A DNA stretch of 28,786 nt from a virus: positions 1-28,786 of IMG/VR virus record IMGVR_UViG_3300046371_000410; one strand, given 5' to 3'. Shown piece by piece: positions 3,466 to 25,305 of this stretch. The translations under genes were made by a program, and so were the position numbers. The notes beneath the pieces are model-generated. The model saw nothing but the letters and a program-made list of their open reading frames with translations, was not told where the DNA came from and made no database searches. Numbering within the stretch: the stretch's first letter is position 1; every line of letters starts with the position of its first letter.

Positions 3466-6400
3466 ATGGCTATAGATCCTACTTCACTTGATGCCTTTGC
3501 TAGCTCAGGGGCTCGTTCAATGGACGATGAAACCCCAGAACAGGAGTTCTTTTCCTTATCAGACACACTTGCAGCACCCTTTCGAGGTGTTGAGGGAGGC
3601 GTCAAAGGGCTATACGACTTCGCCGACTTCGTGGTAGGCGATGTTCTGCCTGACTACGACACACGATTGCTTGGAACATCCAATACAATGGCGGGTGGTT
3701 TCATAGAAGGAATGGCACAGTTTGCTACAGGGTTTGTTCCTGGTGTAGGTGTATTAGGCAAAGTGGGCCGTTTAGCTAACGCTAGGAAGTATCTAGGGGC
3801 AAACGTAGCTAATAAGATTGCGCGAGGAGGCAAATTGTCCCACCAAGAAGCTAGGAAGCTTGCTAAGAATACCAAGTTAAGACGCTTCGGGGATAACTTA
3901 GCAGCAGGAGTGGCAACTGACTTCTTAATGTTTGACGCTCAGGAAGAACGCCTAAGTAACCTGTTGTATCAATACCCAGACCTACAGAACCCAGTCACAG
4001 AGTATCTTCAAGCGACTGATGAAGACGGGGAGATTGAAGGGCGATTTAAGAACGCCTTAGAGGGAGTCTTTATTGAGGCAGGAGTAGGGGCTATCCTTGC
4101 TCCGTTTATCTCAAGTGTGAAGATGATTAAGAACCGTAACAAGAAGATTGCGGAGGGTAAATCACCAGAAGACGCTGTGGATGAGGCGATTGCAGAAGGC
4201 AGTGAGGATGCTGTTAAGTTTGACTATGGGAAGCTTGATGACCCCCTAACAGGGATCAAAGGGCAGTCTGCTACGAAATCGACCCCTGAGGAGATGGAAG
4301 AATTCATAACAGAGAAGGGACTAACACTAGATGACTTTATTATTGATGAGACTACGGGGCGGTTAGATTTTGCTACAGCAGGCGCAGGAGGACGTAAAGC
4401 CAGCGCTGAAGATGTATATAATTATATAACAAAAGCAAGTAATGATGACTCTGCTGTAATTGAACTTAGTAAGTTCCGAGTTGAAGGAGAAACGGGATCT
4501 TTAGGGTTTATTGATAGAATTATTTCTTCAATAGATGAAGGGAAAGGGACATATAACAAAGATACTTTAAATCAGGTTAATCTATTAAAAACATTAAGAG
4601 ATAGGTTTGGAGATACCTTAGGAAAGGTTGATATAGAAGTAGGAAAAGAAGGAAGGGCGTATTACTCCCCTAACGCTGTGTCCTCACGGAACGAATATAA
4701 CTCTAATGTTCAACTTTATGACAATGATAAGTTATCAACAGTAGTTCATGAGTATATTCACTCTCTTTCTACTGATATTATTTATAAGAATTTTTACGTT
4801 AGAGACGCAAAAGGGAAAGCTGTTAAGGGCTCTGCATACTTAGATGAACTAGGAAAACTAGTAAAAACAGGTAAGAATGCGAAGGGAGAGCAAGTCCCCG
4901 CTTCACTTCGAGAGCTAGGAGATCTCTACTTAACGGCGGTAGATCGGCTGGGACAATCAGCACTATTACGTCAAGGAGGTAAGAAAGGGGCTGCCGGAGT
5001 TCCTGATGAGGTTATGGGTAAAGGTGCTCAATATGGCCTTGGTAACATCCATGAGTTTATCACACAGGCTTTCATGGACCCTCAGTTCCAACGGGAACTA
5101 GCTTCAATAACAATCACTAAAGGTAAGAAGCCTGCTACTGTATACACAAAGTTTAAGGAGTTGATTACTAAGATACTTGGGTTTAAACCTCAAGAGTCCT
5201 CTATGCTCGATGAGGTATTGTCTGTTAGTAATTCAGTATTTAGGGACAATGAAACCTTTAGAATGTCAGGCAAAAACCCTGAGACAGTATCAGGAAGGTA
5301 TACCCCTATAGATGCCTACGATGAAATTAGTGGCCTTGAGCAAATGAGTATATCGGGGTCAGGGGCTAAGTTTGAAAAGGGCTTAGGGTTCTTGATGAAC
5401 GCTGCCACTAAGTATAAGGTTAAGATTAACAAAGAGTTTGCAAAGCAAGTTAAAGAACTTAGCGGGACTGACCTTTATCGAGGAGTTTCTGAAGGTAAAC
5501 TATCTGAAGCCTTTGAAAAGGCAGGAGTAGACTTTAAGAAAAGTTTACAAATAATGGATGAAGTAGACCGGGTATTTAATAGCACAATACGCAAAGCAAG
5601 GGATGCTCGTGAAGATTCTGTCAAAGCTAATGTTATCAAATTTGATGATAAAGTTAACATCGACAATTATCAGTTTAAGGCTACTAAGTATAAAAGAGGC
5701 ACTAAGAAGTCTGGGCTTAAGCAATTTGATTCGTTTGAAGTCAAAGTTATTTCACCAAATGGTGACGTTATAAATACCTATAGACGCAAAGCTGTATCTG
5801 AAGAATCAGCAATAGGATTTGCAATGACGAAAACAAGAGAGAATGCGTTTGGTAAAAACAAGAAACAAATCATCACTCAAGTTCGCAATGGTAAATTCTT
5901 AAGAAAGGCAGCTTCTGATGCCAACATCACCTTAGACATCAAGGAAATAAAAGAAGGTAACGGACGGCCTGACCATGTCGAGGTGACCTTCCTGGATGCT
6001 TCTCAGAAAGAAATCAACTTAAGGAATCTCCCAGATAACATACAGAGGGAAACAGAGTTATACCTAAAAGCTCGTGGAGGAAAAGTCAAAGCGGTTAACC
6101 CACAAGACGAAGTTCCTATTGGTCGTGTTGTTGATAAAGACGGCAACCCAATGGACCCGGCAACGAGTGATCCTGAGGAATATGAGAATGCTCTTACAGA
6201 AGTTGTTAGGCGTGCACTTAAAGATGCAGGACCAGGTGGGGGTGTTGATGCAATCAAAGGAGTCATACGGACTATCTCAGAAGAGAAAGACTTCATCACA
6301 ATTGCAAGGGCCCTTGCTGGGGAACAAGTAGAGTTTCTTACTAAGGAAGCTAAGATTCCTAAAACATCAGCGGATGAGTTACTTAATCCCAAGCAAAGTG

Positions 6401-9335: not shown

Positions 9336-9552
9336 AAATTACAAGAACGAATACAACACCTACCACGCCAAGCCGACCCAGAAGAAACGCAGGGCCGGGC
9401 GTAACGCTGCACGAAGGCTGATGATTAAAAAGGTAGGTAGGAATACTTTGAAGGGGAAGGACGTTGATCATAAAGACAGGAACCCCAACAACAACACACG
9501 AGCAAACCTAAGGATTCAATCAAAAAGGAAAAATCGCTCAAGAAATGGCTGA
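9328..9552 (+). CDS. Small HNH endonuclease-like protein between terS and terL
   Basis: 74 residues, strongly basic (runs of Lys and Arg at both ends). The core KDVDHKDRNPNNNTRANLRI matches the second half of the HNH nuclease fold: the His of VDH, the Asn-rich turn and the N-x-R-x-x-NL segment. There is no homing-endonuclease DNA-binding domain, and the protein is shorter than most HNH enzymes, so it could be a minimal nickase, a terminase helper, or a reduced remnant. HNH proteins next to terminase genes assist packaging cleavage in some cos phages; whether that applies to a T7-like phage is unknown. It overlaps terS and terL by 8 bases each, with nearly the same sequence at both joints (ATGGCTAG and ATGGCTGA), which is unusual. 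Confidence 0.72.
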   Translation: MARNYKNEYNTYHAKPTQKKRRAGRNAARRLMIKKVGRNTLKGKDVDHKDRNPNNNTRANLRIQSKRKNRSRNG

Positions 9553-11224
9553 TATAAAACAAACAGCAGCACAGCTCAAAGACTTCCGTAACTTCCTATA
9601 CATGGTATGGAAGCAACTTAACCTTCCTGACCCTACACCTATTCAATATGAGATCGCGGATTACATGCAGCACGGAGACAAGCGAGCAGTTATTCAAGGC
9701 TTTCGAGGCGTTGGAAAGAGTTGGATCTGCTCTGCTTACGTTGTCCACCAGTTGCTCCTCGATCCCTCAAAGAATATACTTGTTGTCTCTGCTTCAAAAA
9801 CTCGAGCAGATGACTTCTCAACTTTTACTCTTAGGCTTATCCATGAGATGCCCCTACTTAAGCACCTCATTCCCCAAGACAAACAACGATTCAGTAAAAT
9901 CTCATTCGACGTCGGTCCAGCCCCAGCGGCCCACGCGCCGTCCGTCAAGTCCCTGGGTATCACATCTCAACTGACCGGGTCTCGTGCAGACATCATTGTT
10001 GCCGATGACGTCGAGGTCCCAAACAACTCGGCGACCCAGATGATGCGAGACAAGCTCGGAGAACAAGTCAAAGAGTTCGATGCGATCCTTAAGCCCAACG
10101 ATGACTCAAAGATAATCTTTCTAGGAACACCACAATGCGAAGACACAATATACCGTCAGCTAACCGAGCGCGGCTACCAGACACGCATCTGGCCTGCTCA
10201 GTATGTCACCCCAGACCAAAGCGCTAAGCGTTACGATGGGCACATCGCTGATTGTTGTGTTGATATAGAACAAAAAGGAAGGTCCACAGAACCACTACGG
10301 TTCTCTGATGTTGACCTTGCTGAACGTAAAGTATCCTACGGCTCTGCCGGGTATGCTCTTCAATTTATGTTGGACTCAAACCTTAGTGACGTCGAAAAGT
10401 ATCCGCTGAAGCTTGCGGACCTTATCGTGATGTCCCTTGATAACGAACTGGCCCCAGAACGCCTAGTGTGGGCTCGAGACCCCGAGCTCGAGTGGGACGG
10501 CTCAATACCTAACGTAGGGATGACCGGAGACAGATTCTATCGCCCCATGAAGGTGCTTGGTGAACACGTTAAGTATACCGGGAGCGTCATGTCAATCGAC
10601 CCGTCAGGACGAGGCAAAGACGAGACAGGCTATGCGGTCGTTAAGATGCTTAATGGTTTCCTGTATGTCACGGCGGCTGGAGGGGTCCAGGGAGGCTACT
10701 CTGAGGAAACCCTTAAGTTCCTTTCGATGACTGCCAAAGAACACAAGGTCAACGAGATCGTCGTGGAGAGTAACTTCGGGGATGGTATGTTTGTTGAACT
10801 ACTAAAACCAATACTTCGCAAGGTCCATCCGTGCACCATTGAGGAAGTGAGACACAGCACACAGAAAGAACGAAGGATCATTGATACCCTCGAGCCCGTG
10901 ATGACAGGCCATAAGCTTGTGGTTGACCCGAAGGTCATTCAGAACGACTACGAGACGACTCAGAGCTATCCTAAAGACCACGCGTTGAAATACCAGTTGA
11001 TCTACCAGATGACTCGTATAACTCGTGACAGGGGCGCTGTGACGCATGACGACCGCTTAGACGCGCTTTCGATGGCAGTTGGATACTGGGCCGCCCAAAT
11101 GGCCCAAGACGCGTCAGAACGCATCCTAGAGCGAAAGGAGGACGATCTTAAGATGGAGCTAGAAAAGTATGCAGAGGCATATTATAAAACACGAAAAGGG
11201 AGTGAAAACATCCTCACTTGGTAG
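9545..11224 (+). CDS. terL: Terminase large subunit (ATPase and nuclease)
   Basis: 559 residues, close to T7 gp19 (586). The ATPase domain shows a Walker A-like loop GFRGVGKS at residues 52-59 and Walker B IIVADD at about 150-155. The C-terminal RNase H-fold nuclease begins with SIDPSGRGKDETGY (D352 as metal ligand), followed by VVESNFGDGMF and the late acidic motif HDDRLDALS. The protein pumps DNA into the prohead and cuts concatemers at the genome ends. The start overlaps the HNH stop by 8 bases. A ten-codon acidic/basic tail precedes the TAG at 11222. No late tail gene follows; the next stretch is regulatory, as at the right end of T7. Confidence 0.95.
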   Translation: MADIKQTAAQLKDFRNFLYMVWKQLNLPDPTPIQYEIADYMQHGDKRAVIQGFRGVGKSWICSAYVVHQLLLDPSKNILVVSASKTRADDFSTFTLRLIHEMPLLKHLIPQDKQRFSKISFDVGPAPAAHAPSVKSLGITSQLTGSRADIIVADDVEVPNNSATQMMRDKLGEQVKEFDAILKPNDDSKIIFLGTPQCEDTIYRQLTERGYQTRIWPAQYVTPDQSAKRYDGHIADCCVDIEQKGRSTEPLRFSDVDLAERKVSYGSAGYALQFMLDSNLSDVEKYPLKLADLIVMSLDNELAPERLVWARDPELEWDGSIPNVGMTGDRFYRPMKVLGEHVKYTGSVMSIDPSGRGKDETGYAVVKMLNGFLYVTAAGGVQGGYSEETLKFLSMTAKEHKVNEIVVESNFGDGMFVELLKPILRKVHPCTIEEVRHSTQKERRIIDTLEPVMTGHKLVVDPKVIQNDYETTQSYPKDHALKYQLIYQMTRITRDRGAVTHDDRLDALSMAVGYWAAQMAQDASERILERKEDDLKMELEKYAEAYYKTRKGSENILTW

Positions 11225-11374
11225 TAGTTGTAAATGATTCATTATAAATGTCTTATATCAATGATCGTATAGGGGGAGTAAAAAGACTATTGACAAGGCT
11301 TAATTTCTCTCTTTAAGTACTCTTAGAGATGACTAAGAGAACACTATATTCTTTAGTTTATTCATTTACAACTA
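11225..11374. repeat. 13-bp inverted repeat flanking the post-terL spacer
   Basis: TAGTTGTAAATGA at 11225-11237 is perfectly inverted as TCATTTACAACTA at 11362-11374. The arms are separated by 124 bases that contain a promoter-like site and half of a phased repeat array. The left arm begins right after the terL stop. Confidence 0.6.
11254..11277 (+). promoter_or_regulatory. Candidate phage RNA polymerase promoter
   Basis: The sequence around GATCGTATAGGGGGAGTA resembles the melting/initiation part of T7 promoters (TATAGGGAGA), with the first G at 11272. The upstream specificity region does not match T7, as expected for a diverged polymerase. No clear second copy was found upstream of other genes, so the call is weak. 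Confidence 0.25.
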
Positions 11375-11416
11375 TATCTCTTAGATATCTTTAAGATACT
11401 CTAAGTAACTTTAAGT
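11311..11416 (+). repeat. Phased TTAG/TAAG repeat array before the post-terL gene
   Basis: Short motifs of the type CTTTAAG, CTTAGAG and CTCTAAG recur with their last core G at 11317, 11326, 11337, 11356, 11384, 11395, 11405 and 11415. The last four are 11, 10 and 10 bases apart, one DNA helical turn. The array ends at the ATG of the next gene. T7 has arrays of imperfect 7-base repeats (consensus CCTAAAG) beside its terminal repeats; CTTTAAG is close to the reverse complement of that unit. Function is unknown; binding of a protein to one face of the DNA, or a packaging-related role, are possibilities. Confidence 0.6.
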
Positions 11417-11647
11417 ATGCCTGATGACCCTCTCGACTCACTCAAAGCCACTCTAGGCGAACATTACGAGAATTATGTGGTTGTTGTGGCTGATACCCGG
11501 CACCAGTGCAGAGTCATTTACGACAACTCATTCGCAGCCAAAGGACTGCTCAATGTCGGATTAAATATTGTTGACGAATCGTTCAATTCATATATAGATG
11601 GCTTCGAGATTGACTTCGGGTCTTCATCAAAGACTGACGAAGAGTAA
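11417..11647 (+). CDS. Small protein after the terminase (gp19.5 position), unknown function
   Basis: 76 residues, not recognised. It is acidic and has an alternating hydrophobic core typical of a small globular protein: YENYVVVVADTRHQCRVIYD, then LLNVGLNIVDE, then an acidic Ser-rich end. No membrane segment and no enzyme motif is visible. It is preceded by a phased repeat array instead of a Shine-Dalgarno and followed by a strong terminator, so it appears to be the last gene of the late transcript. In T7 the small gene 19.5 occupies the same place before the right end; any functional link is inference. Confidence 0.6.
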   Translation: MPDDPLDSLKATLGEHYENYVVVVADTRHQCRVIYDNSFAAKGLLNVGLNIVDESFNSYIDGFEIDFGSSSKTDEE

Positions 11648-11695
11648 CCCTGAGTTGGTCTTATGCTCTATATTTGCATTGTGTTGTTCATTAGG

Positions 11696-11735
11696 CAGGG
11701 CTCTTAGTAATCGCTAGGGGCCCTGTTCTATTTTT
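11696..11735 (+). terminator. Strong intrinsic terminator, end of the late transcript
   Basis: Stem CAGGGCTCTTAG (11696-11707) pairs with CTAGGGGCCCTG (11714-11725) over 12 bp with two G-U pairs; the loop is TAATCG. It is followed by TTCTATTTTT (11726-11735). This is a complete rho-independent signal 48 bases after the last stop codon of the late genes. Confidence 0.85.
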
Positions 11736-11762
11736 GGCAAAAAAGTCTGAGAGGGTTATATA
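11734..11762 (+). promoter_or_regulatory. Sigma-70-like promoter candidate after the terminator
   Basis: TTGGCA (11734-11739), a 17-base spacer, and TATATA (11757-11762). It begins within the T-run of the terminator, so transcription would restart towards the early genes. T7 has its host-read early promoters at the equivalent left end. The sequence just downstream (TATACGGAGA) also differs from the T7 initiation sequence by a single base, so a phage-polymerase promoter is an alternative. Confidence 0.35.
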
Positions 11763-11798
11763 TACGGAGAGTGTGCCGCATCACCCCGTAGGGCCTCG

Positions 11799-12038
11799 GC
11801 GCGAGCTCAGCGAATCGAAGCGCGAACTTAGCGACCAATGATAGTTTCCTGAAGGAGCTCAGCGATACCCAAAAGCATCAAGGGGAGCCTGGCTGGTCGC
11901 TACCGGGGAGAGGTCCTGAAGTTTCGCCAGGCTAGTCGATTGGTAAACCTGGAGGAGCGCTGAGCCCGGCTGGTCGTGGTTGTGTTTGAGTGTTTGTGGG
12001 TGTTTTTACGTTTTGAAGAGCTCAGCGATTCCTTAGCG
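11799..12038 (+). repeat. Dispersed 11-bp repeat family GAGCTCAGCGA
   Basis: Copies: GAGCTCAGCGA at 11803-11813, GAACTTAGCGA at 11824-11834, GAGCTCAGCGA at 11855-11865 and 12018-12028. There is a shorter CTTAGCG at 12032-12038 and an inverted core (CGCTGAGC) at 11958-11965. The first two sit in a 15-base repeat (GCGCGARCTYAGCGA) spaced 21 bases apart, two helical turns. Related units (GCTTAGCGA) occur in the array before the RNA polymerase gene at 14302-14310. Confidence 0.65.
11887..11976 (+). repeat. Triple 13-bp repeat GCCNGGCTRGTCG
   Basis: Three direct copies: GCCTGGCTGGTCG at 11887-11899, GCCAGGCTAGTCG at 11926-11938 and GCCCGGCTGGTCG at 11964-11976. Start-to-start spacing is 39 and 38 bases. 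They alternate with the GAGCTCAGCGA family. Even spacing suggests iterated protein-binding sites, for packaging, replication or early regulation. Confidence 0.6.
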
Positions 12039-12063
12039 CTCACCAAGCCCTCTCAAAACAACC

Positions 12064-12140
12064 TTGAGAAATCTCAAATCTTTTCTTGCAAGAATCAAAA
12101 CGGACTGATAGTAATCTCTTCACTGGCCCAATAATTGGGC
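12064..12140. promoter_or_regulatory. Cluster of three palindromes upstream of the first early gene
   Basis: TTGAGA-AA-TCTCAA (12064-12077), the perfect 12-mer TTCTTGCAAGAA (12083-12094) and GCCCAA-TAA-TTGGGC (12126-12140) lie within 100 bases before the ATG at 12162. A weak -35-like TTGCAA (12086-12091) sits inside the second palindrome, with poor -10 candidates around 12107-12115. Operator sites on the early promoter are one reading; the third palindrome could instead act as an RNA hairpin in the leader. Confidence 0.4.
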
Positions 12141-12161
12141 TGGCTAAAAAGAATAAAAGAT

Positions 12162-12428
12162 ATGGAAAACGTAAGAATAACACTAGGCGGGGGGAACTTT
12201 GCAGATGTTCTCGATGCAAATGAATTTGAGCTCGAGCATCTCGAGTTTGATTTTTCTACGATTTATAAAGTAGAGTGGGGCCATCAAGATTTCATAAGAG
12301 ATATTAAAGATGAGATCTTTGAGGAGACTGGAATGATCTTTGAGCTCGAGTCAAATGATGGCGACGAGGTCCTCACGGGAACACTCCACAAAGGAACAAC
12401 AACCAACAACAAGAACAAGAACAAATGA
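12162..12428 (+). CDS. First early gene, small acidic protein of unknown function
   Basis: 88 residues from the ATG at 12162; the frame extends upstream only to a TTG at 12135 inside a palindrome, which is less likely. It is preceded by an A-rich leader (AAAAGAATAAAAGAT) without a good Shine-Dalgarno. The body is acidic, with alternating hydrophobic residues (VRITLGGGNFADVL, FELEHLEFDF, MIFELESNDGDEVL), suggesting a small beta-rich fold. The tail is low-complexity (TTTNNKNKNK) and is encoded by the CA-rich leader of the next gene. Not recognised. As the first gene after the probable left end, it may act early against the host, by analogy with T7 gene 0.3 to 0.7; that is position-based inference. 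Confidence 0.6.
   Translation: MENVRITLGGGNFADVLDANEFELEHLEFDFSTIYKVEWGHQDFIRDIKDEIFEETGMIFELESNDGDEVLTGTLHKGTTTNNKNKNK
12392..12425 (+). promoter_or_regulatory. CA-rich leader replacing a Shine-Dalgarno
   Basis: An unstructured AAC/CAA tract (AACAACAACCAACAACAAG and following) leads into ATGAACAAAAGAA. Nearly the same leader and first codons recur at 13441-13490, and similar tracts precede the genes at 3466 and 17023. It lacks G and should stay single-stranded, a feature of Shine-Dalgarno-independent initiation. Confidence 0.45.
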
Positions 12429-12625
12429 ACAAAAGAACAAAGACAAAGCAAACTATTCGAGAGATCATCACGGTCCTTGAGGAGCAGCGCTCCACGCTCG
12501 CAGACATCCAAGCAGCACTCTTGAGGGCCTCGCATGAAGATGTCATGACCGACATAATCAAGCGCACGGATACTCTCGACTTCAAGTTGATTCAGAAGCG
12601 CAACGGGAGGAGGGCATTCAAATGA
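12425..12625 (+). CDS. Early small basic helical protein, unknown function
   Basis: 66 residues. It starts at the ATGA that overlaps the previous stop, behind a CA-rich leader without Shine-Dalgarno. It has a basic N-terminus (MNKRTKTK), then a predicted long helix or coiled coil (REIITVLEEQRSTLADIQAA) and a mixed basic end (KRNGRRAFK). No known motif. The end of the coding sequence carries AGGAGG, the ribosome binding site of the next gene. Likely translated in one early operon with its neighbours. Confidence 0.6.
   Translation: MNKRTKTKQTIREIITVLEEQRSTLADIQAALLRASHEDVMTDIIKRTDTLDFKLIQKRNGRRAFK
12608..12613 (+). promoter_or_regulatory. Consensus Shine-Dalgarno for the 30-aa membrane protein
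   Basis: AGGAGG, 8 bases before the ATG at 12622. It is one of few perfect ribosome binding sites in the window and supports the short gene that follows. It also encodes Arg codons of the upstream gene, so some caution remains. Confidence 0.6.
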
Positions 12626-12714
12626 AACGGACCTTCTCAATGTTTTGGGCAGTCACGGTAAGCCTAACTGCTGCCATGTGGGTGATTATAATTAAACTGA
12701 TGCTGAAGAAATGA
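12622..12714 (+). CDS. 30-residue single-span membrane micro-protein
   Basis: Very short gene: MKRTFSMFWAVTVSLTAAMW, then VIIIKLMLKK and a TGA. There is a cationic start, one hydrophobic segment of about 20 residues and a Lys-rich end. A consensus AGGAGG lies 8 bases upstream. Both ends overlap the neighbours by ATGA, so it fits precisely between two genes of the early operon. This spacing and the ribosome site are better evidence than the length. Function unknown; small early membrane proteins of phages often alter host membrane or superinfection behaviour, but nothing here shows which. Confidence 0.55.
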   Translation: MKRTFSMFWAVTVSLTAAMWVIIIKLMLKK

Positions 12715-13325
12715 AGAAGCAAAGTCTTACAAAGGTCAGTGATAGTGTTATCCGCAAGAATCTTCGCACATGGCGAGACCGAGCTACCTATCGCGATGCA
12801 CGCCAAGGTGGTGAATGGTATGATGAAGCGAACGCTCACGCGCAAATGATCGCGCAAGAGGTTGGTTGTGATGTTTGGACTGCTGCTGCTGTTATCAGTG
12901 CGCTTAGTCCTATGAACGATTGGGAGCGCAACAAGCTTGACGCGTTGAACTTGGCGCTTGTCCATCATGATGGTGGCAAGCCTGAAGACGTTCGCGTTTG
13001 CACATTCAACAACAACAAAGCCAAAGCTTGGGACCTTCTCGAAGGTGACTCAAAAGCTCTTGATGATGGCTCACCAAAAACGTGGGCTTTCGCAAAGAGC
13101 ATAGAGCTCACAAGAATGGCTCGTTGTGTCGTGATTGATCGTTGGCATATGCGAGCATGCTTAACAAGCTCAACGAAGCGCAAAGCGATTGTGGAAGGGC
13201 TCACCAAGCCACAATACAACCGCGTAGAACGTCTTACCATTAGCGAAGCAGACAAGCTCCACGAAGCGCCATCGGTCTACCAAGCGACTCTATGGGTAAC
13301 CATAAAGCGTTATTGGGAGAAATGA
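12711..13325 (+). CDS. Early conserved phage protein with possible HhH-GPD-like core
   Basis: 204 residues. The ATG overlaps the preceding stop (ATGA). Visible blocks: EWYDEANAHAQMIAQEVGCD (residues about 35-54), TAAAVISALSPMNDWERNK (about 57-75), FNNNKAKAWDLLEGD (about 98-112), SPKTWAFAKSI and VVIDRWHMRACL (about 120-150), and a C-terminal helix with YQATLWVTIKRYW. The order A-x-x-SALSP-x-x-W-x-x-N, K-A, then VIDRWHMR matches a family of uncharacterised proteins of actinobacteriophages and other phages. The pattern of a helix with LSP followed by V-x-D-x-H recalls helix-hairpin-helix DNA glycosylases, where an Asp in the V-D-x-H segment is catalytic. That link is remote and unproven. It is the largest protein of the early operon. 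Codon use is richer in GC than its small neighbours. Confidence 0.65.
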   Translation: MKKQSLTKVSDSVIRKNLRTWRDRATYRDARQGGEWYDEANAHAQMIAQEVGCDVWTAAAVISALSPMNDWERNKLDALNLALVHHDGGKPEDVRVCTFNNNKAKAWDLLEGDSKALDDGSPKTWAFAKSIELTRMARCVVIDRWHMRACLTSSTKRKAIVEGLTKPQYNRVERLTISEADKLHEAPSVYQATLWVTIKRYWEK

Positions 13326-13534
13326 AGATAAACAAAGAAAAACCTCCTTGTGATCGCTTTGGGTTTCCCTTAGCTCTCAACTGGAATATTGTATTGAGGA
13401 ACCAACTAGAAGGAAAGCCACTTACTCAAGGGGCTTACATAACAACCAACAACAACCAACAACAACAAGAACGAAACAATGAACAAAAGAAGAAAAAACA
13501 AAGAAGAAATAGACCACGACAAGAAAAACCTTGA
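13322..13534 (+). CDS. Early small basic protein with low-complexity tail, unknown
   Basis: 70 residues from an ATGA overlapping the preceding stop; GGGAG lies close upstream. The first 40 residues look like a small folded unit (PPCDRFGFPLALNWNIVLRN). The rest (Asn/Gln/Lys/Arg-rich) is encoded by the CA-rich leader and the start of the next gene, which it overlaps by 56 bases. The tail may therefore be an accident of the leader sequence and not a conserved part. Not recognised. Confidence 0.45.
   Translation: MKINKEKPPCDRFGFPLALNWNIVLRNQLEGKPLTQGAYITTNNNQQQQERNNEQKKKKQRRNRPRQEKP
13441..13478 (+). promoter_or_regulatory. Second copy of the CA-rich leader
   Basis: Repeats of AACAACC/AACAAC followed by AAGAACGAAACA lead into ATGAACAAAAGAA, as at 12392-12437. 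The leader and the first five codons of the downstream gene are shared with the earlier copy, while the rest of the two proteins differs. Confidence 0.45.
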
Positions 13535-13772
13535 ACGACTTGAGAAGCTCGAAGGTCAAAACGCACTCAAGTTGATTGAGGAATTCGCTGAGCAAATGAG
13601 CTGGGGCGCAGACATCACTCACGTTTCGTGCGGGATTGTTCTCAAGCTCATGGAGGGCATTCCGTGTCAACTCAAAGATGCTCGAAAGCGCATAAAACAA
13701 CCTTACGTTGCAGATCAATGGGAGGAAGATTGCACGGCATTTTCTCAATATTCAAAGGAGGAAACAGTATGA
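13479..13772 (+). CDS. Early helical protein, unknown function
   Basis: 97 residues. The start MNKRRKNK closely matches that of the gene at 12425 (MNKRTKTK), with the same type of leader. Next is a charged helix (NLERLEKLEGQNALKLIEEF), then a more hydrophobic centre with AEQMSWGADITHVSCGIVLK and a polar C-terminus. Two Cys residues are not in a zinc motif. It overlaps the preceding frame by 56 bases and the next gene by ATGA. The stretch just before its stop carries AAAGGAGG for the next gene. No family recognised. Confidence 0.55.
   Translation: MNKRRKNKEEIDHDKKNLERLEKLEGQNALKLIEEFAEQMSWGADITHVSCGIVLKLMEGIPCQLKDARKRIKQPYVADQWEEDCTAFSQYSKEETV
13754..13761 (+). promoter_or_regulatory. Shine-Dalgarno fixing the start at 13769
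   Basis: AAAGGAGG with a 7-base spacer to the ATG at 13769. It decides this start over the ATG at 13628, which would give an extra 47 residues inside the preceding gene. Confidence 0.75.
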
Positions 13773-13996
13773 ACAAACTATTCACTCTTTATGAGTCAAA
13801 CCGTGCCACCTTTCCGCACATAGCTGATGCGAAGAGATTTATTGAAAACTTTAACTCTCTTCCTTATGAGCTCGAGCCCTTTGAGATTAAAAGGCCAAGC
13901 TTGAAATACAGAAGAAGACAAGAAAGTAGTTGGTATTGGATACAAGCAACGCGTCATTTTGAGCATAAAGATTGCACTTGTTTTATTTCTGAATAG
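13769..13996 (+). CDS. Last gene of the early operon, small aromatic-rich protein
   Basis: 75 residues, starting behind a strong AAAGGAGG and overlapping the previous stop by ATGA. It is rich in Phe, Tyr and Trp (LFTLYESNRATF, SSWYWIQATRHF) and has a C-terminal Cys pair (DCTC). The one HxxxxxxC-type arrangement near the end could bind a metal but is not a recognised finger. The stop is 21 bases before a strong terminator, so this ends the early transcript. Function unknown. Confidence 0.6.
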   Translation: MNKLFTLYESNRATFPHIADAKRFIENFNSLPYELEPFEIKRPSLKYRRRQESSWYWIQATRHFEHKDCTCFISE

Positions 13997-14017
13997 CTGA
14001 CAACAACAAACAAAAAC

Positions 14018-14049
14018 AAGCGCTTAGGGTTTTCTCTAAGCGCTTTTTT
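14018..14049. terminator. Early intrinsic terminator, probably bidirectional
   Basis: Perfect 10-bp stem AAGCGCTTAG (14018-14027) / CTAAGCGCTT (14036-14045), an 8-base loop, and a T-run to 14049. On the other strand the stem is followed by T-rich sequence (complement of AAACAAAAAC), so it may also stop leftward transcription. It lies between the early genes and the RNA polymerase gene. Confidence 0.85.
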
Positions 14050-14122
14050 GTGGCCTCTTTGCTTTCTCTAATTGACTAGATTTCTCAGCCAGGCCGGATG
14101 ATAGTAGAGCGTGCCCCGACGA

Positions 14123-14221
14123 TTAGGACTTAGAGCCGAACACAATGAGTGCCAGAAGAACCACGTAGTAAAGTGCTAAGCAAATGGTTGTAGTTGTAGT
14201 AAAGAAGTCTTTATTTTTCAT
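14123..14221 (-). CDS. Possible leftward 32-aa membrane micro-protein
   Basis: On the minus strand an ATG at 14221 opens MKNKDFFTTTTTICLALYYV, then VLLALIVFGSKS and a TAA at 14123. It has a charged start, a Thr run, one good hydrophobic segment and a Ser/Lys end. No Shine-Dalgarno is seen, and it would be the only gene on this strand. In its favour, it runs away from the phased array and towards the bidirectional terminator. AT-rich spacer sequence can give hydrophobic frames by chance, so this is tentative. Confidence 0.22.
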   Translation of the reverse strand: MKNKDFFTTTTTICLALYYVVLLALIVFGSKS

Positions 14222-14226
14222 AGTGT

Positions 14227-14332
14227 CTTTAAGTGTCTTATAGATTCTTTAAGATATAGTTGTCTTTTGTTTTAACCACTAAGGACCATTGCTTAGTGAT
14301 TGCTTAGCGATCTCTTAGAGATACTTTAAGAG
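14227..14332 (+). repeat. Second phased TTAG/TAAG array, upstream of RNA polymerase
   Basis: Part one: TCTTTAAGTG, TCTTATAGAT and TCTTTAAGAT are consecutive 10-mers from 14227 to 14256. Part two: TTGCTTAGTGA, TTGCTTAGCGA, TCTCTTAGAGA and TACTTTAAGAG are consecutive 11-mers from 14289 to 14332. The same motif family makes up the array at 11311-11416, and the second part also resembles the GAGCTCAGCGA family. Spacing by one helical turn places all copies on the same face of the DNA. Confidence 0.65.
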
Positions 14333-14333
14333 C

Positions 14334-14350
14334 GTGCACCGGGGGTGCGT
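14334..14350. other. Short GC hairpin before the RNA polymerase operon
   Basis: GTGCACC-GGG-GGTGCGT can form a 7-bp stem (two G-U pairs) with a 3-base loop. No T-run follows, so it is not a typical terminator; it may be an RNA processing site or chance. Confidence 0.25.
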
Positions 14351-14387
14351 CAAGAATAAAATTGACAATATGTGTTTTTTACCTAAA

Positions 14388-14393
14388 AAGGAG
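14388..14393 (+). promoter_or_regulatory. Shine-Dalgarno for the gene preceding RNA polymerase
   Basis: AAGGAG within AAAAAGGAG, 5 bases before the ATG at 14399. It supports a 56-codon gene that has no other strong evidence, and it probably feeds ribosomes into the overlapping RNA polymerase gene. Confidence 0.65.
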
Positions 14394-14398
14394 TCGTA

Positions 14399-14569
14399 AT
14401 GAGCATAAAGTTAATAAAGAACAAAGAAGCAGAAGAAATAAGACGACAACTAGTCGAGGATGAGTGTGCCATGCTTGCCAAGCGCATCAAGCGACTAAGA
14501 GACCGCCAAGAATTCATGAAGAAAGCCCTAGAATTGTATGCAGAACGAGCAGGAAAAGGATGTCGTTAA
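14399..14569 (+). CDS. Small basic helical protein overlapping the RNA polymerase start
   Basis: 56 residues: MSIKLIKNKEAEEIRRQLVE, then DECAMLAKRIKRLRDRQEFM and a basic end (AGKGCR). It is almost entirely helical and charged, with heptad-like spacing of Leu, Ile and Met, which suggests a small coiled coil. A strong Shine-Dalgarno is 5 bases before the start. The last 32 bases overlap the RNA polymerase gene in another frame. Because the RNA polymerase start lacks a Shine-Dalgarno, this gene may serve as its translational lead, whether or not the peptide itself has a role. Not recognised as a known family. Confidence 0.6.
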   Translation: MSIKLIKNKEAEEIRRQLVEDECAMLAKRIKRLRDRQEFMKKALELYAERAGKGCR

Positions 14570-16994
14570 AGAACTTACTCAGGCGGACCTCAACCAAGAC
14601 ATGGTTGACCTCGGCGTTGGTCGGTATCGCGCTCGCATCGAGTCTGCTAAGAAGCGGGAAGCGGAAAGCGAGACGAAATACGGGCAAAGGTTGATCCGGG
14701 GAGGGCTCCCGACTTACTCAAAGGCCATCAAAGAGATGGTCGATGGGTGGGACAACAGGAACAGTGCGCTCTGGCAGTTAGGCCTCCGAGAGATGAAGCC
14801 ATCAGTGATTGGTTTTATTGTGATTAAGGCCGTCCTGGATTGTATTACCCTCAAGAAGAACATGGCAGCAGTGAGTCACTTTGTTGGCTCTCGTGTTGAG
14901 GACCAGCACCGCTGTGACTTCCTTGTGAAGAACAACGAGGCCAAGGGAGAGGGAATTGTTTTAGGCGCTCAGCGCCGCCGTGGGGGCCTCCTTAACCAGC
15001 GCAGGCACATCAAGAGCTCGATGCGTAACGAGGCCGAGAAGGGCCTTATGCCAGGCTACACGGACTGGAGAAGACGCGACAAGCTTAGTTGTGGTTTGAC
15101 CTTGGTAGAACTACTCAGGCACGTCACTGGGATCATTGAGTATGTTTACATCCTAGAGAAGGCGGGTAAGAAGCCCACACGCTACGTCACGGCATCGAAG
15201 GGCACCCTGGACTGGATCGAGAACTACAACGACGACAAGGAGCTTTTCGAGCCGTTCTGGCTTCCTACCGCTGACGCACCGTTGCCTTGGGATTCAATCT
15301 GGGAGGGAGGCTATGACACAGCAGGCACAGCCCTGCCCAAGCTTCCGTTCATCAAGACGTCCAACATGGACTTCCTGAGGACAATTGAGAATGACAAGCT
15401 CGAGGTGCCCATGGAGGCCTGTAACCTTATCCAAGGGACGCCATGGGTCATCAATCCGAGCGTGCTGCGTGTTGCCAAGTGGGCCTGGCATAACAACGTG
15501 GAGGTGGGTGCCCTACCAAGCAAGGAAGACGAACAACTACCAGAGATCCCGAATGACTTCCACGAGAACGATGATAGTAATCGCAAGTGGCGACAGACCG
15601 CCGCTGGGATCTACTCACGGAACGCGAGCACCAAGTCGAAGCGACTGCTCACAAGTAAGATTATCTTCACAGCCGAGAAGCTCAGTGCCTCTCGGTTCTT
15701 CTATCCGAGTCACTGTGACTTCCGAGGGCGCGTGTATAACATTGCGTCGTCGCTGAGTGTCATGGGGAACGACCTGTGCCGGGGGCTCCTACAGTTTGCC
15801 CGGACAGAGCGACTGGCCAACGCCAACGATGCCAAGTGGCTTGCCGTTGCCGGGGCGAACGCGTGGGGAAACGACAAGGTCACACTGGACGAGCGGTGGA
15901 AGTGGTCGGAGGCGTTCACCAACGACGCCATCAAGATCGCTAAGAACCCTGAGCGTGAGTTGTTGTGGACGGAGGCAGACAAGCCATGGTCTTTCCTTGC
16001 CTGGGCGAACGAATGGGCAGCCTACAAGCTTAACGGTAAGATCAACAGTGCGCTCCCGGTGAACATGGACGCGTCCAACAATGGCCTACAGATCCTTTCT
16101 ATGCTGACGCGTGATCCGTATGGGATGGAAGCGACGAATGTTCTACCGACAACCACACCTCAGGACATCTATGGGGTTGTTGCGGCTAATGCCGTTAAAA
16201 CTTTAAAGGCCCAGGCCGCTACCGGGGATGAACTGGCGCGTGCTTGGGTTGGCTTTGGGATAGATCGGGTCAGCTGCAAGAGGCCAGTAATGTGCTATTC
16301 GTATGGGCTCACTCCGTATTCTAATCGTGCATACATTAACGAATGGTATGACGAACAGATCCACGGTAAGAAGCGAGAGAAGCCATTCAGTGACGACAAG
16401 CGCTACTACGCTATCCACATGCTTGCTGAGCATGTTTGGCGAGGCATTGAGTCGGTCCTAGAGAAGCCAAAGGAGTGCATGGACTGGTTCCAAGATTGCA
16501 CTCGGCTGATTGCCAATGAAAATCGTGCGTTGTCGTGGGTATCACCTACCGGGTTCCCTGTGCACCAAGAATACTACAAGGTTCACAACCAACAAGTAAA
16601 CACATACATCAGTGGGAAGGCAACGTGCGTAAAGTTTCGCGAGGACGACGATGAGATCATCAGTCGAAGGAGAATGGTTAATGGTGCATCACCTAACGTA
16701 GTGCATAGTCTGGATGCATCAGCCCTTCACGAGACTGTGGTGCGTGCCAACAAGAACCATGGGATCTATGACTTTTCGTTTATCCATGACAGTTATGGGA
16801 CCCACTCAAACAAGTGTGACCAACTTTCTTCGACATTGCGTGAAGTTTTTGTTGACTTCTTTTCGCGTGATCTGTTGAATGAATGGCGCACGCAGTTAAC
16901 GGAACAACATCCAGACTTAGATTTCCCGGTGCCACCAGAGTTTGGTGACGCTGAGATAAACAAGATAAAGGAGTCAACATACTTCTTTAGCTAA
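14538..16994 (+). CDS. Single-subunit DNA-dependent RNA polymerase (T7 gp1 type)
   Basis: 818 residues versus 883 in T7. Catalytic set: motif A NMDASNNGLQ with D511 (T7 D537), motif B SCKRPVMCYSYG with K581 and Y589 (T7 K631 and Y639, same 8-residue spacing), and motif C FIHDSYGTHS with D751 (T7 D812). The helix DFRGRVYNIAS around residues 394-404 matches the T7 DXXGR-type block. The N-terminal domain is shorter than in T7. It transcribes the phage middle and late genes from its own promoters after host polymerase makes it. Motif A differs from the T7 DGSCSGIQH core in the residues after the Asp. The start at 14538 overlaps the preceding small gene by 32 bases, implying coupled translation. 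Placement after the small early genes is the T7 arrangement, but an intrinsic terminator lies upstream. Confidence 0.97.
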   Translation: MQNEQEKDVVKELTQADLNQDMVDLGVGRYRARIESAKKREAESETKYGQRLIRGGLPTYSKAIKEMVDGWDNRNSALWQLGLREMKPSVIGFIVIKAVLDCITLKKNMAAVSHFVGSRVEDQHRCDFLVKNNEAKGEGIVLGAQRRRGGLLNQRRHIKSSMRNEAEKGLMPGYTDWRRRDKLSCGLTLVELLRHVTGIIEYVYILEKAGKKPTRYVTASKGTLDWIENYNDDKELFEPFWLPTADAPLPWDSIWEGGYDTAGTALPKLPFIKTSNMDFLRTIENDKLEVPMEACNLIQGTPWVINPSVLRVAKWAWHNNVEVGALPSKEDEQLPEIPNDFHENDDSNRKWRQTAAGIYSRNASTKSKRLLTSKIIFTAEKLSASRFFYPSHCDFRGRVYNIASSLSVMGNDLCRGLLQFARTERLANANDAKWLAVAGANAWGNDKVTLDERWKWSEAFTNDAIKIAKNPERELLWTEADKPWSFLAWANEWAAYKLNGKINSALPVNMDASNNGLQILSMLTRDPYGMEATNVLPTTTPQDIYGVVAANAVKTLKAQAATGDELARAWVGFGIDRVSCKRPVMCYSYGLTPYSNRAYINEWYDEQIHGKKREKPFSDDKRYYAIHMLAEHVWRGIESVLEKPKECMDWFQDCTRLIANENRALSWVSPTGFPVHQEYYKVHNQQVNTYISGKATCVKFREDDDEIISRRRMVNGASPNVVHSLDASALHETVVRANKNHGIYDFSFIHDSYGTHSNKCDQLSSTLREVFVDFFSRDLLNEWRTQLTEQHPDLDFPVPPEFGDAEINKIKESTYFFS

Positions 16995-23463: not shown

Positions 23464-25305
23464 ATGTCTCTTACCCGATCACTAACACGCCCTCTGACTC
23501 GTAAGATAAGTCGAGCAGACCTTACCCAAGGATTCGGAGGTAGCTTTAGCCCTTTTGCGCTAGACCCTTACCTTTTGTTTGACGCGCGTGACTCGATGGT
23601 CGGGACCCTGGAGAACCCAACGCTCGACTTGAACCCGGCGTTACCTGAGACACTCGACGTTATCACAGCGACCCGCGCAGGAATCGCGACCTACACAGAC
23701 CCCAACGGTAACATAGCGACCGCCAGTGCTGACACGGTGCGCGTTGATTACACGCAGGGAGCCGAGTTGACTCCGACGAAGTTTCAGCGGTTTGTGAATA
23801 CTGAGTTTGACCAAGCATACTGGTCGTTTAGCTCGCAGATGGGAAATCCGGTTTACAATTATGACACTGCTCCGAATGGAGAGCAGGAAGCCACCAGAAT
23901 TGTATCAAACGGAGGTTCTTATCCTCAAATCGTTGAGACTATAACAGGCTTAACTGTTGGACAGGAATACACCGCGAGCTTTTATGTTAAATCTGATGGG
24001 ACTTCACAGATTCAGCAGGCCACTCATTTTACAGGACTTTCTGGCGGTATAGGTTTTACACCGACAGATAATTGGGAGCGAGCAAGCTACACTATAACGG
24101 CTACTGCTACCACGCATAATTTTGTTATATTCACAAACAGTGGTTCTGCTCCTGCTTCATCATATCTTATTTGGGGGCCCCAAGTCGAAGAAGGCACAAC
24201 CGCGAGTTCCTTCGTGGAGAACACAACGGGAAGCCCGAAGTTTATCACGGGTGCGACCTACGGGCCGCGAGTGCCGATGATACTGGTGGAGCCGAGTGCG
24301 ACGAACTTGGTAGAATCATCGGACATCAACTCGGATTGGGGTTTTTATTCAAACGATTCAACTATTACCCAACACACGAGTGATTTAGGAGAAATAAACG
24401 CTTACGTTTTATCGCGAATAGGGAGTAACCAGAAAACGAGCTTGCAGCACGGTGACATAAGCGGAGGCTCAACGACAAACGCAACCGCTTCTTTGTTCTA
24501 CAAAAATATAGGGGAAGCGCGTTTCTTCCAGTTCTGGGATACTAATCTGAGCGGCAATAACTTCGTAAACGTTGATACCATAAGTGATGCATTTAACGCA
24601 TCTGCGGGGTCAGCTAAAATAACTAACCTTGGGAATGGTTGGAGGCGACTTGAATGGACGCGCCCCGATAGCGCCTCACAGAGCTCTGGCAAAATTAGGT
24701 TGAGCCTTGCTGACTCGTTAGGAGACTCCAGAAATTCAAATTTCGCAGGAACAGGAGGAATCGCTTTTGCGGGAGTTCAGCTTGAAGAAGGCGACGTAGC
24801 AACATCGTTCATCCCCACATCAGGCTCCACCGTGACGCGAGCCGCTGACAACCTTGTGATTTCCGGCAGTGACTTTAGCGGATTCTTTAATGCAAGTGAG
24901 GGGACGGTTTACACTGAGTTTGTGCCTACTCAAGCAAGTGCTGGCCGTTATGTATGGTCAATAAATAATGGAACTTATTCCAGCCGAACGTTCCAAAACA
25001 TACTATCCAATCTTCAGCTCACGAATACTTACCGCATCAATAATTCGGATTCTTTTTTGCAAACAATTACGACTCATAACGTTTCGCCTAATGAAATTAA
25101 TAGAACGGCGTTTACTTATAGTTCAGACCTTTTTCAAAGTTCTATTGATGGGAACAATTCTTCATCGAACAGCGGCGCAACTACTAGTGCCTTCAATAAG
25201 CTTAACCTTGGAGCGACAGCCGTTAGCTCAGACATTAACACCTATGCGCTTACAGGTCATGTGAAACGCCTAATCTACTGGCCTTATTCGTCTGACCGTC
25301 TCTAA
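23464..25305 (+). CDS. Modular fibre/spike-type virion protein with lectin-like domains
   Basis: 613 residues. The N-terminus (about 1-60) is distinct and includes SLTRSLTRPLTRKISRADLT, perhaps the anchor. Next come two related carbohydrate-binding-like modules. The first spans about 115-262, with ELTPTKFQRFVNTEF, ASFYVKSDG and WGPQVEEGTTASSFVENT. The second spans about 275-465, with LVEPSATNLVESS, NGWRRLEWT and GVQLEEGDVATSFIPTSGST. The QLEEG-ATSFIPTSGSTVTRAAD signature is typical of phage head-spike and minor fibre proteins. The last 140 residues (from SGSDFSGFFNASEGTVYTEF to LTGHVKRLIYWPYSS) look like a concanavalin A/LamG jelly roll. No signal peptide, protease or hydrolase motif was seen. 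Likely exposed on the virion and involved in binding cell-surface glycans; the attachment site on the particle is unknown. Confidence 0.72.
   Translation: MSLTRSLTRPLTRKISRADLTQGFGGSFSPFALDPYLLFDARDSMVGTLENPTLDLNPALPETLDVITATRAGIATYTDPNGNIATASADTVRVDYTQGAELTPTKFQRFVNTEFDQAYWSFSSQMGNPVYNYDTAPNGEQEATRIVSNGGSYPQIVETITGLTVGQEYTASFYVKSDGTSQIQQATHFTGLSGGIGFTPTDNWERASYTITATATTHNFVIFTNSGSAPASSYLIWGPQVEEGTTASSFVENTTGSPKFITGATYGPRVPMILVEPSATNLVESSDINSDWGFYSNDSTITQHTSDLGEINAYVLSRIGSNQKTSLQHGDISGGSTTNATASLFYKNIGEARFFQFWDTNLSGNNFVNVDTISDAFNASAGSAKITNLGNGWRRLEWTRPDSASQSSGKIRLSLADSLGDSRNSNFAGTGGIAFAGVQLEEGDVATSFIPTSGSTVTRAADNLVISGSDFSGFFNASEGTVYTEFVPTQASAGRYVWSINNGTYSSRTFQNILSNLQLTNTYRINNSDSFLQTITTHNVSPNEINRTAFTYSSDLFQSSIDGNNSSSNSGATTSAFNKLNLGATAVSSDINTYALTGHVKRLIYWPYSSDRL

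Follow-up and report, generated by a model that had tools for sequence, protein, structure and literature searches.

The window analyzed in this work, a virus record of 28,786 bases taken as a whole, contains two arrays of short tandem repeats, array A after the terminase large subunit gene (terL) and array B before the RNA polymerase gene, which share one repeat unit, one layout and one spacer element. We propose, giving this reading about an even chance of being right, that array B, together with array A, would be a cis-acting repeat element of the type found at the ends and origins of T7-group phages, placed here before the RNA polymerase gene and involved in replication start and/or early control. 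We favour it because of (i) the shared layout, the paired spacer element, the changes by whole units and the constrained TA steps of the arrays, and (ii) the recognition of T7 and T3 regions by a matrix built from the arrays and the presence of gh-1 and LUZ100 promoters at matching places.

Anatomy of the two arrays

The phage is a member of the Autographiviridae, with a single-subunit RNA polymerase and a T7-like gene order. It is a marine T7-like phage devoid of close named relatives, the nearest named polymerase being that of Ayaqvirus S45C18 (41% identity). The gene order is terL (9545-11224, plus strand; phrog_38, E 3.1e-115), array A, an ORF (11417-11647), a predicted intrinsic terminator (11694-11737, plus strand), a GC-rich stretch, early genes up to 13996, a terminator (14018-14045), array B, a small ORF of 56 codons without any PHROG match (14399-14569, plus strand) and the gene of the T7-like RNA polymerase (14538-16994, plus strand; phrog_414, E 3.1e-201).

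Array B, read on the plus strand, comprises three gapless 10-mers (TCTTTAAGTG, TCTTATAGAT and TCTTTAAGAT; 14226-14255) that are kept in close relatives, an AT-rich spacer (14256-14288) and four gapless 11-mers (TTGCTTAGTGA, TTGCTTAGCGA, TCTCTTAGAGA and TACTTTAAGAG; 14289-14332). It is noncoding and ends 206 bp upstream of the RNA polymerase gene. The sequence-only reading had described these seven units correctly, apart from a start placed one base late (14227 instead of 14226), but had missed the layout common to both arrays, i.e., three units, an AT-rich spacer of 33-35 bp and four units. In array A, also on the plus strand, the left part (CTCTTTAAGTA, CTCTTAGAGAT and GACTAAGAGAA; 11309-11341) was aligned in 14 distinct relatives, the spacer occupies positions 11342-11375 and the right part (ATCTCTTAGAT, ATCTTTAAGAT, ACTCTAAGTA and ACTTTAAGTA; 11376-11417) ends at the ATG of ORF 11417-11647. 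The motif common to array B and array A (11309-11417) consists of TA-centred units, about CTYTAAG, found 10-11 bp apart.

This sharing, which had also been claimed previously, was observed with a 12-mer matrix built from array A only (threshold of 7 bits, 60 shuffled windows as control): it finds six sites within 110 bp at array B, compared to three at the next place in the window and a maximum of five in the shuffled windows. The reverse scan is weaker, the array B matrix finding five sites at array A, a number equalled by one coding place of the window. The array A matrix did not reveal a comparable cluster in any other AT-rich part of the window, and the motif is therefore not equally dense elsewhere. 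When identity at lags of 10 and 11 was computed in 60-bp windows across the whole sequence, array B ranked first and fourth and the right half of array A fifth, the right part of array B (14289-14332) having the highest 10/11-bp self-similarity of all. Taken by itself, the phasing of TA steps stands out only modestly, within the top 3-12% of windows.

The spacers were compared using a matrix trained on array spacers of the relatives. It places an element, GTTTTAACCACTAAGGACCATTG, at 14269-14291 in array B and a copy of it, AGTTTATTCATTTACAACTATAT, at 11355 in array A, with scores of 31.2 and 24.1, respectively; the next score in the window is 13.2, from a match in coding sequence that lies on the opposite strand. 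Since both copies of the window were among the training members, what this result tells us is that further copies are absent. In the window and in two related genomes (G001 and G003), the two best matches of each genome are its two arrays. This element (GTTTTAACCACTAAGGACC, with the form TTTTAACCATTAAGAACAAT in several relatives) is a candidate phage promoter present in only two copies per genome. It was rejected as an ordinary phage promoter, as it has no third good copy and none at late genes. A search for phage promoters by self-comparison of 21-mers in the window, G001 and G002 retrieved only low-complexity leaders and tail-fibre repeats. ORF 25321-28053, probably a tail-fibre gene, carries at 27147-27740 a repeat (AW..C.SLTSF) that recurs in steps of roughly 69 bp, equivalent to about 23 residues, and its counterpart in G001 has similar repeats.

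Conservation and change among relatives

Close relatives retain both arrays in place, and the conservation of spacing that the sequence-only reading had called for was found in them. The arrays of different relatives differ in length mostly by a whole unit or two (10, 11 or 20 bp): (i) the left part of array B has one additional 10-bp unit in L004 and L026 and fewer units in L023, (ii) its right part lacks one 11-bp unit in L007 and L008, and (iii) the right part of array A varies by 10 or 20 bp in L083, L085, L087 and L089. In L088 and L023, the spacer element of array A is nearer to the version of array B. Within the units, the TA steps are less variable (3 of 28 columns) than the flanking unit columns (38 of 111, p 0.019) and the spacer columns (27 of 68, p 0.007), these p values being indicative only since the sequences are related and not independent.

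Gains and losses of whole units are what slippage is expected to generate, and both arrays are located in noncoding AT-rich DNA, so they could be neutral repeats born by slippage in AT-rich spacers. We consider this very unlikely: the unit, the layout and the spacer element are common to two distant places, variation is lower at the TA steps than next to them and other AT-rich parts of the window do not carry such clusters. A role at the level of RNA structure, as leader hairpins or RNase III sites, is disfavoured and seems highly improbable. The RNAs of both arrays do fold better than shuffled sequences (z of -2.8 for array B and -2.6 for array A), but the units are self-complementary, so that folding follows from the repeat itself; furthermore, neither alignment supports a conserved fold through covariation (unfavourable terms of 0.12 and 1.59 kcal/mol), with few two-sided pair changes.

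The exact motif fades across the sister clades at 85-91%. Upstream of the polymerase gene, matches to the exact matrix are enriched only in relatives that are about 95% or more identical; they are not enriched in the 85% clade and are absent in the 48-50% relatives. After terL, enrichment is seen in the closest relatives as well as in some relatives at 70% (L141, L144 and L147) and not in the 87-91% clades, where drifted 11-mers at this place are discernible by eye only.

Candidate promoters and the predicted genome end

A candidate host sigma-70-like promoter of the RNA polymerase gene is located at 14362-14389 on the plus strand (TTGACA, 16-17 bp, TAAAAA/TAAAAG). It was identified by conservation, its sequence TCAAGAATAAAATTGACAATAT being nearly invariant in the 85-100% relatives; the second hexamer is weak and the consensus promoter scan did not flag the site. 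Conserved TTGACA elements adjoin both arrays, at 11290 (array A) and 14362 (array B). In line with the alternative offered by the sequence-only reading, a control region for the polymerase gene, the units could be bound by a phage or host regulator that tunes the early promoter at 14362, array A doing likewise for the promoter-like sequence at 11290, a reading that we regard as possible and hold only tentatively. Besides the adjoining elements, the spacing of 10-11 bp, which places the sites on one face of the helix, fits such transcription control, and there is a precedent in temperate T7-like phages, for which a MarR-type repressor was proposed to bind beside the promoter of the polymerase gene (PMC10134795). 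However, no regulator gene was recognised among the ten proteins scanned from 11.4 to 14.5 kb, and the sigma-70 scan of 11150-14650 found no good plus-strand site, its three weak hits being all minus-strand and fewer than in shuffled sequences. Furthermore, a purely transcriptional role does not explain the occurrence of such units at the ends and origins of T7-group phages.

About 40 bp after the stop codon of terL, a T7-promoter-like sequence, ATCAATGATCGTATAGGGGGAGT (11258-11280, plus strand), is a candidate phiOR. This type of element is kept 3′ of terL in relatives, and its distance from terL is unchanged in the closest ones. The T7-like ATGATCGTATAGGG after terL was rejected as phage promoter: it is conserved at this place, but the window is devoid of a second good noncoding copy.

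Directly after the terminator at 11694-11737, the sequence AAAAAAGTCTGAGAGGG (11741-11757, plus strand), also found at the same place in relatives, resembles AAAAATCTGA of T7, T3 and gh-1. Since the latter precedes the right terminal repeat by 16-17 bp in T7 (39761), T3 (37961) and gh-1 (37127), the genome end, i.e., the start of the terminal repeat, probably lies near 11758, between the two arrays. The earlier proposal that the arrays bracket the genome end and the early operon agrees with this predicted position. Array A would be about 340 bp from the end with a small ORF in between, as is the case for phiOR in T7, and array B about 2.5 kb away, across the early genes. A near-copy of AAAAATCTGA also immediately precedes the end of the Pasto record, and this type of signal may be a marker of genome ends in T7-like contigs. 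Contig ends lend weak support to the predicted position: in a sister clade, that of G002, they form a weak cluster (23729-24128) just 3′ of the terminator, whereas those of the window's own clade form no clear cluster. The G002 contig itself (37,286 bases, L165/L166) is probably a complete genome because of its exact terminal overlap of 123 bp, although it is classed as linear.

Other short repeats were observed just inside the predicted left end, at 11803, 11855 and 12018 in the window (GAGCTCAGCGA) and as tandem 11-mers (ATAACAGAGGG) around 24030-24100 in G002; they are possibly the left-end array of this clade. The stretch at 12015, near the predicted end, has the second-highest 10/11-bp self-similarity of the window.

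Comparison with T7-group phages and proposed role

The matrix of the window's arrays was applied unaltered to complete phage genomes, with 300 column-permuted matrices as controls. The regions compared were picked after a first scan had revealed clusters, so that the permutation fractions below are somewhat optimistic. The top clusters fall, in T7, on the left and right repeats, the AT-rich region of the primary origin and the stretch after phiOR and, in T3, on the right repeats, the left end and the annotated origin. The four origin/end regions of T7 contain 33 of its 255 matches (12.0 for permuted matrices, maximum 23) and those of T3 contain 24 of 200 (9.6, maximum 18), totals reached by none of the 300 permuted matrices. 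By region, the matches amount to 10 at the left and 8 at the right of T7 (3.0 and 2.1 for permuted matrices), 5 in its primary origin (5924-6006; 2.1, fraction 0.020), 9 at the right of T3 (2.0) and 4 in its origin (2.1, fraction 0.063). T7 161-404, T7 39539-39777 and T3 37745-37977 stand at or below 0.3% of permuted matrices. As judged from these matches, the likeness is strong for the end repeats of T7 and T3, moderate for the primary origin of T7 and borderline for those of T3 (0.063) and gh-1 (0.083). The left ends of SP6 and gh-1 and the stretch after terL of Ayaqvirus S45C18 are also prominent. At the left end of SP6 (L178, about 240-380), 11-12-mers similar to CTTAGTAACTAC and CTTAGTCACTTC resemble the TTGCTTAGTGA units of array B. 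A simple count of YYTARR was rejected as a general marker: it localises well in the window, T7, T3, gh-1 and Ayaqvirus S45C18, but its counts barely exceed those of shuffled sequences and it fails in SP6, Roseobacter phages, LUZ100 and HTVC019P.

Like the end repeats of T7 and T3, tandem TA-centred units (CCTAAAG/CTTAAAG) near the ends that the window's own matrix picks out, the arrays appear to be made of tandem CCTAAAG-like 7-bp units, although their unit differs in detail. T7 units are about 12-13 bp apart and mostly of one form, whereas those of the window are 10-11 bp apart and partly palindromic (CTTTAAG/CTTAGAG), in a composite of three units, a spacer and four units. The likeness to the left and right arrays of T7 suggested by the sequence-only reading is thus upheld for the motif and, in placement, for array A, which follows terL at the place that phiOR and the right-end repeats occupy in T7. 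It does not extend to the placement of array B, which does not directly flank the terminal repeat and has better counterparts than the T7 left array in the interval between phi1 and gene 1 of gh-1, in phi1 of LUZ100 and in the primary-origin sequence of T7.

The primary origins of T7 (phi1.1A/B and the AT-rich region) and T3 (rep_origin 5682-5758) are, like array B, AT-rich stretches beside the polymerase gene, with units CTTAAGG, CTTTAAG, CTTAAGT, CTAAGAG and CTTTAAG. However, they are located downstream of gene 1, directly after consensus phage promoters, whereas array B is upstream. In gh-1, the phage promoter phi1 (939-961) is followed by ATCTTAAAGACATCTCAAAGGTCATCTTAAAGACC and then by gene 1, with repeated ATCTTAAAGAC units between phi1 and gene 1 and other units after gene 19 (phi17 region). 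The phi1-gene 1 interval is the closest positional match to array B, from which it differs by having about three units, 11-12 bp apart, no four-unit right half and a promoter recognised by consensus. In LUZ100, phage promoters mapped by others are located directly upstream of the polymerase gene (phi1) and after terL (phi8, followed by a terminator and the terminal repeat), i.e., at both places where the window has arrays; the matrix found no comparable tandem array in this phage, including after terL.

The arrays could also be sites of packaging or concatemer processing, the small terminase subunit wrapping DNA on in-phase tandem sites near the end. Phased TA steps suit DNA wrapping, array A is placed after terL and before the predicted end, and the motif is matched best by the end repeats of T7 and T3. 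Nevertheless, we find this unlikely given the distance of about 2.5 kb, beyond the early operon, that separates array B from the predicted end, and the lack of a comparable array after terL in LUZ100. What the short repeats at the T7 genome ends do is itself, as far as we know, not settled.

In the end/origin-type reading that we prefer, tandem TA-centred units would flank a short AT-rich core, as in the elements that T7-group phages carry at ends and origins. Array A would mark the right-end zone after terL, and array B would most likely be an RNA-polymerase-proximal origin or control element between the early operon and the polymerase gene, a single factor possibly reading both. Transcription by the phage or host polymerase, perhaps from a promoter in the spacer, would begin at or near array B and open its AT-rich repeats, thereby priming replication, and the same stretch would set polymerase expression. 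Several points count against this reading: the match to the primary origins, moderate in T7 and borderline in T3 and gh-1, the location of the T7 and T3 primary origins downstream of gene 1, the spacing of 10-11 bp not shared with the T7 end repeats, the fading of the exact motif in sister clades and the absence of copies of the spacer element at late genes.

More broadly, the end repeats, primary origin and polymerase control region of T7-group phages and of this marine clade could be written in one repeat-unit code, with a single phage or host protein, as yet unrecognised, as its reader; we regard this extension as doubtful. If it were true, the end repeats and the AT-rich origin of T7 would be copies of the same element. 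Our literature search, in which older T7 papers were thinly covered so that the link may already be published, retrieved no work uniting them under one motif. A motif learned in a distant marine phage picks out the end repeats of T7 and T3 and, with less strength, the primary origins of both. If this relationship is real, it would connect two features that have been treated separately and would point to probable origins and ends in uncultured marine phages of the T7 type, which have neither known promoters nor known termini.
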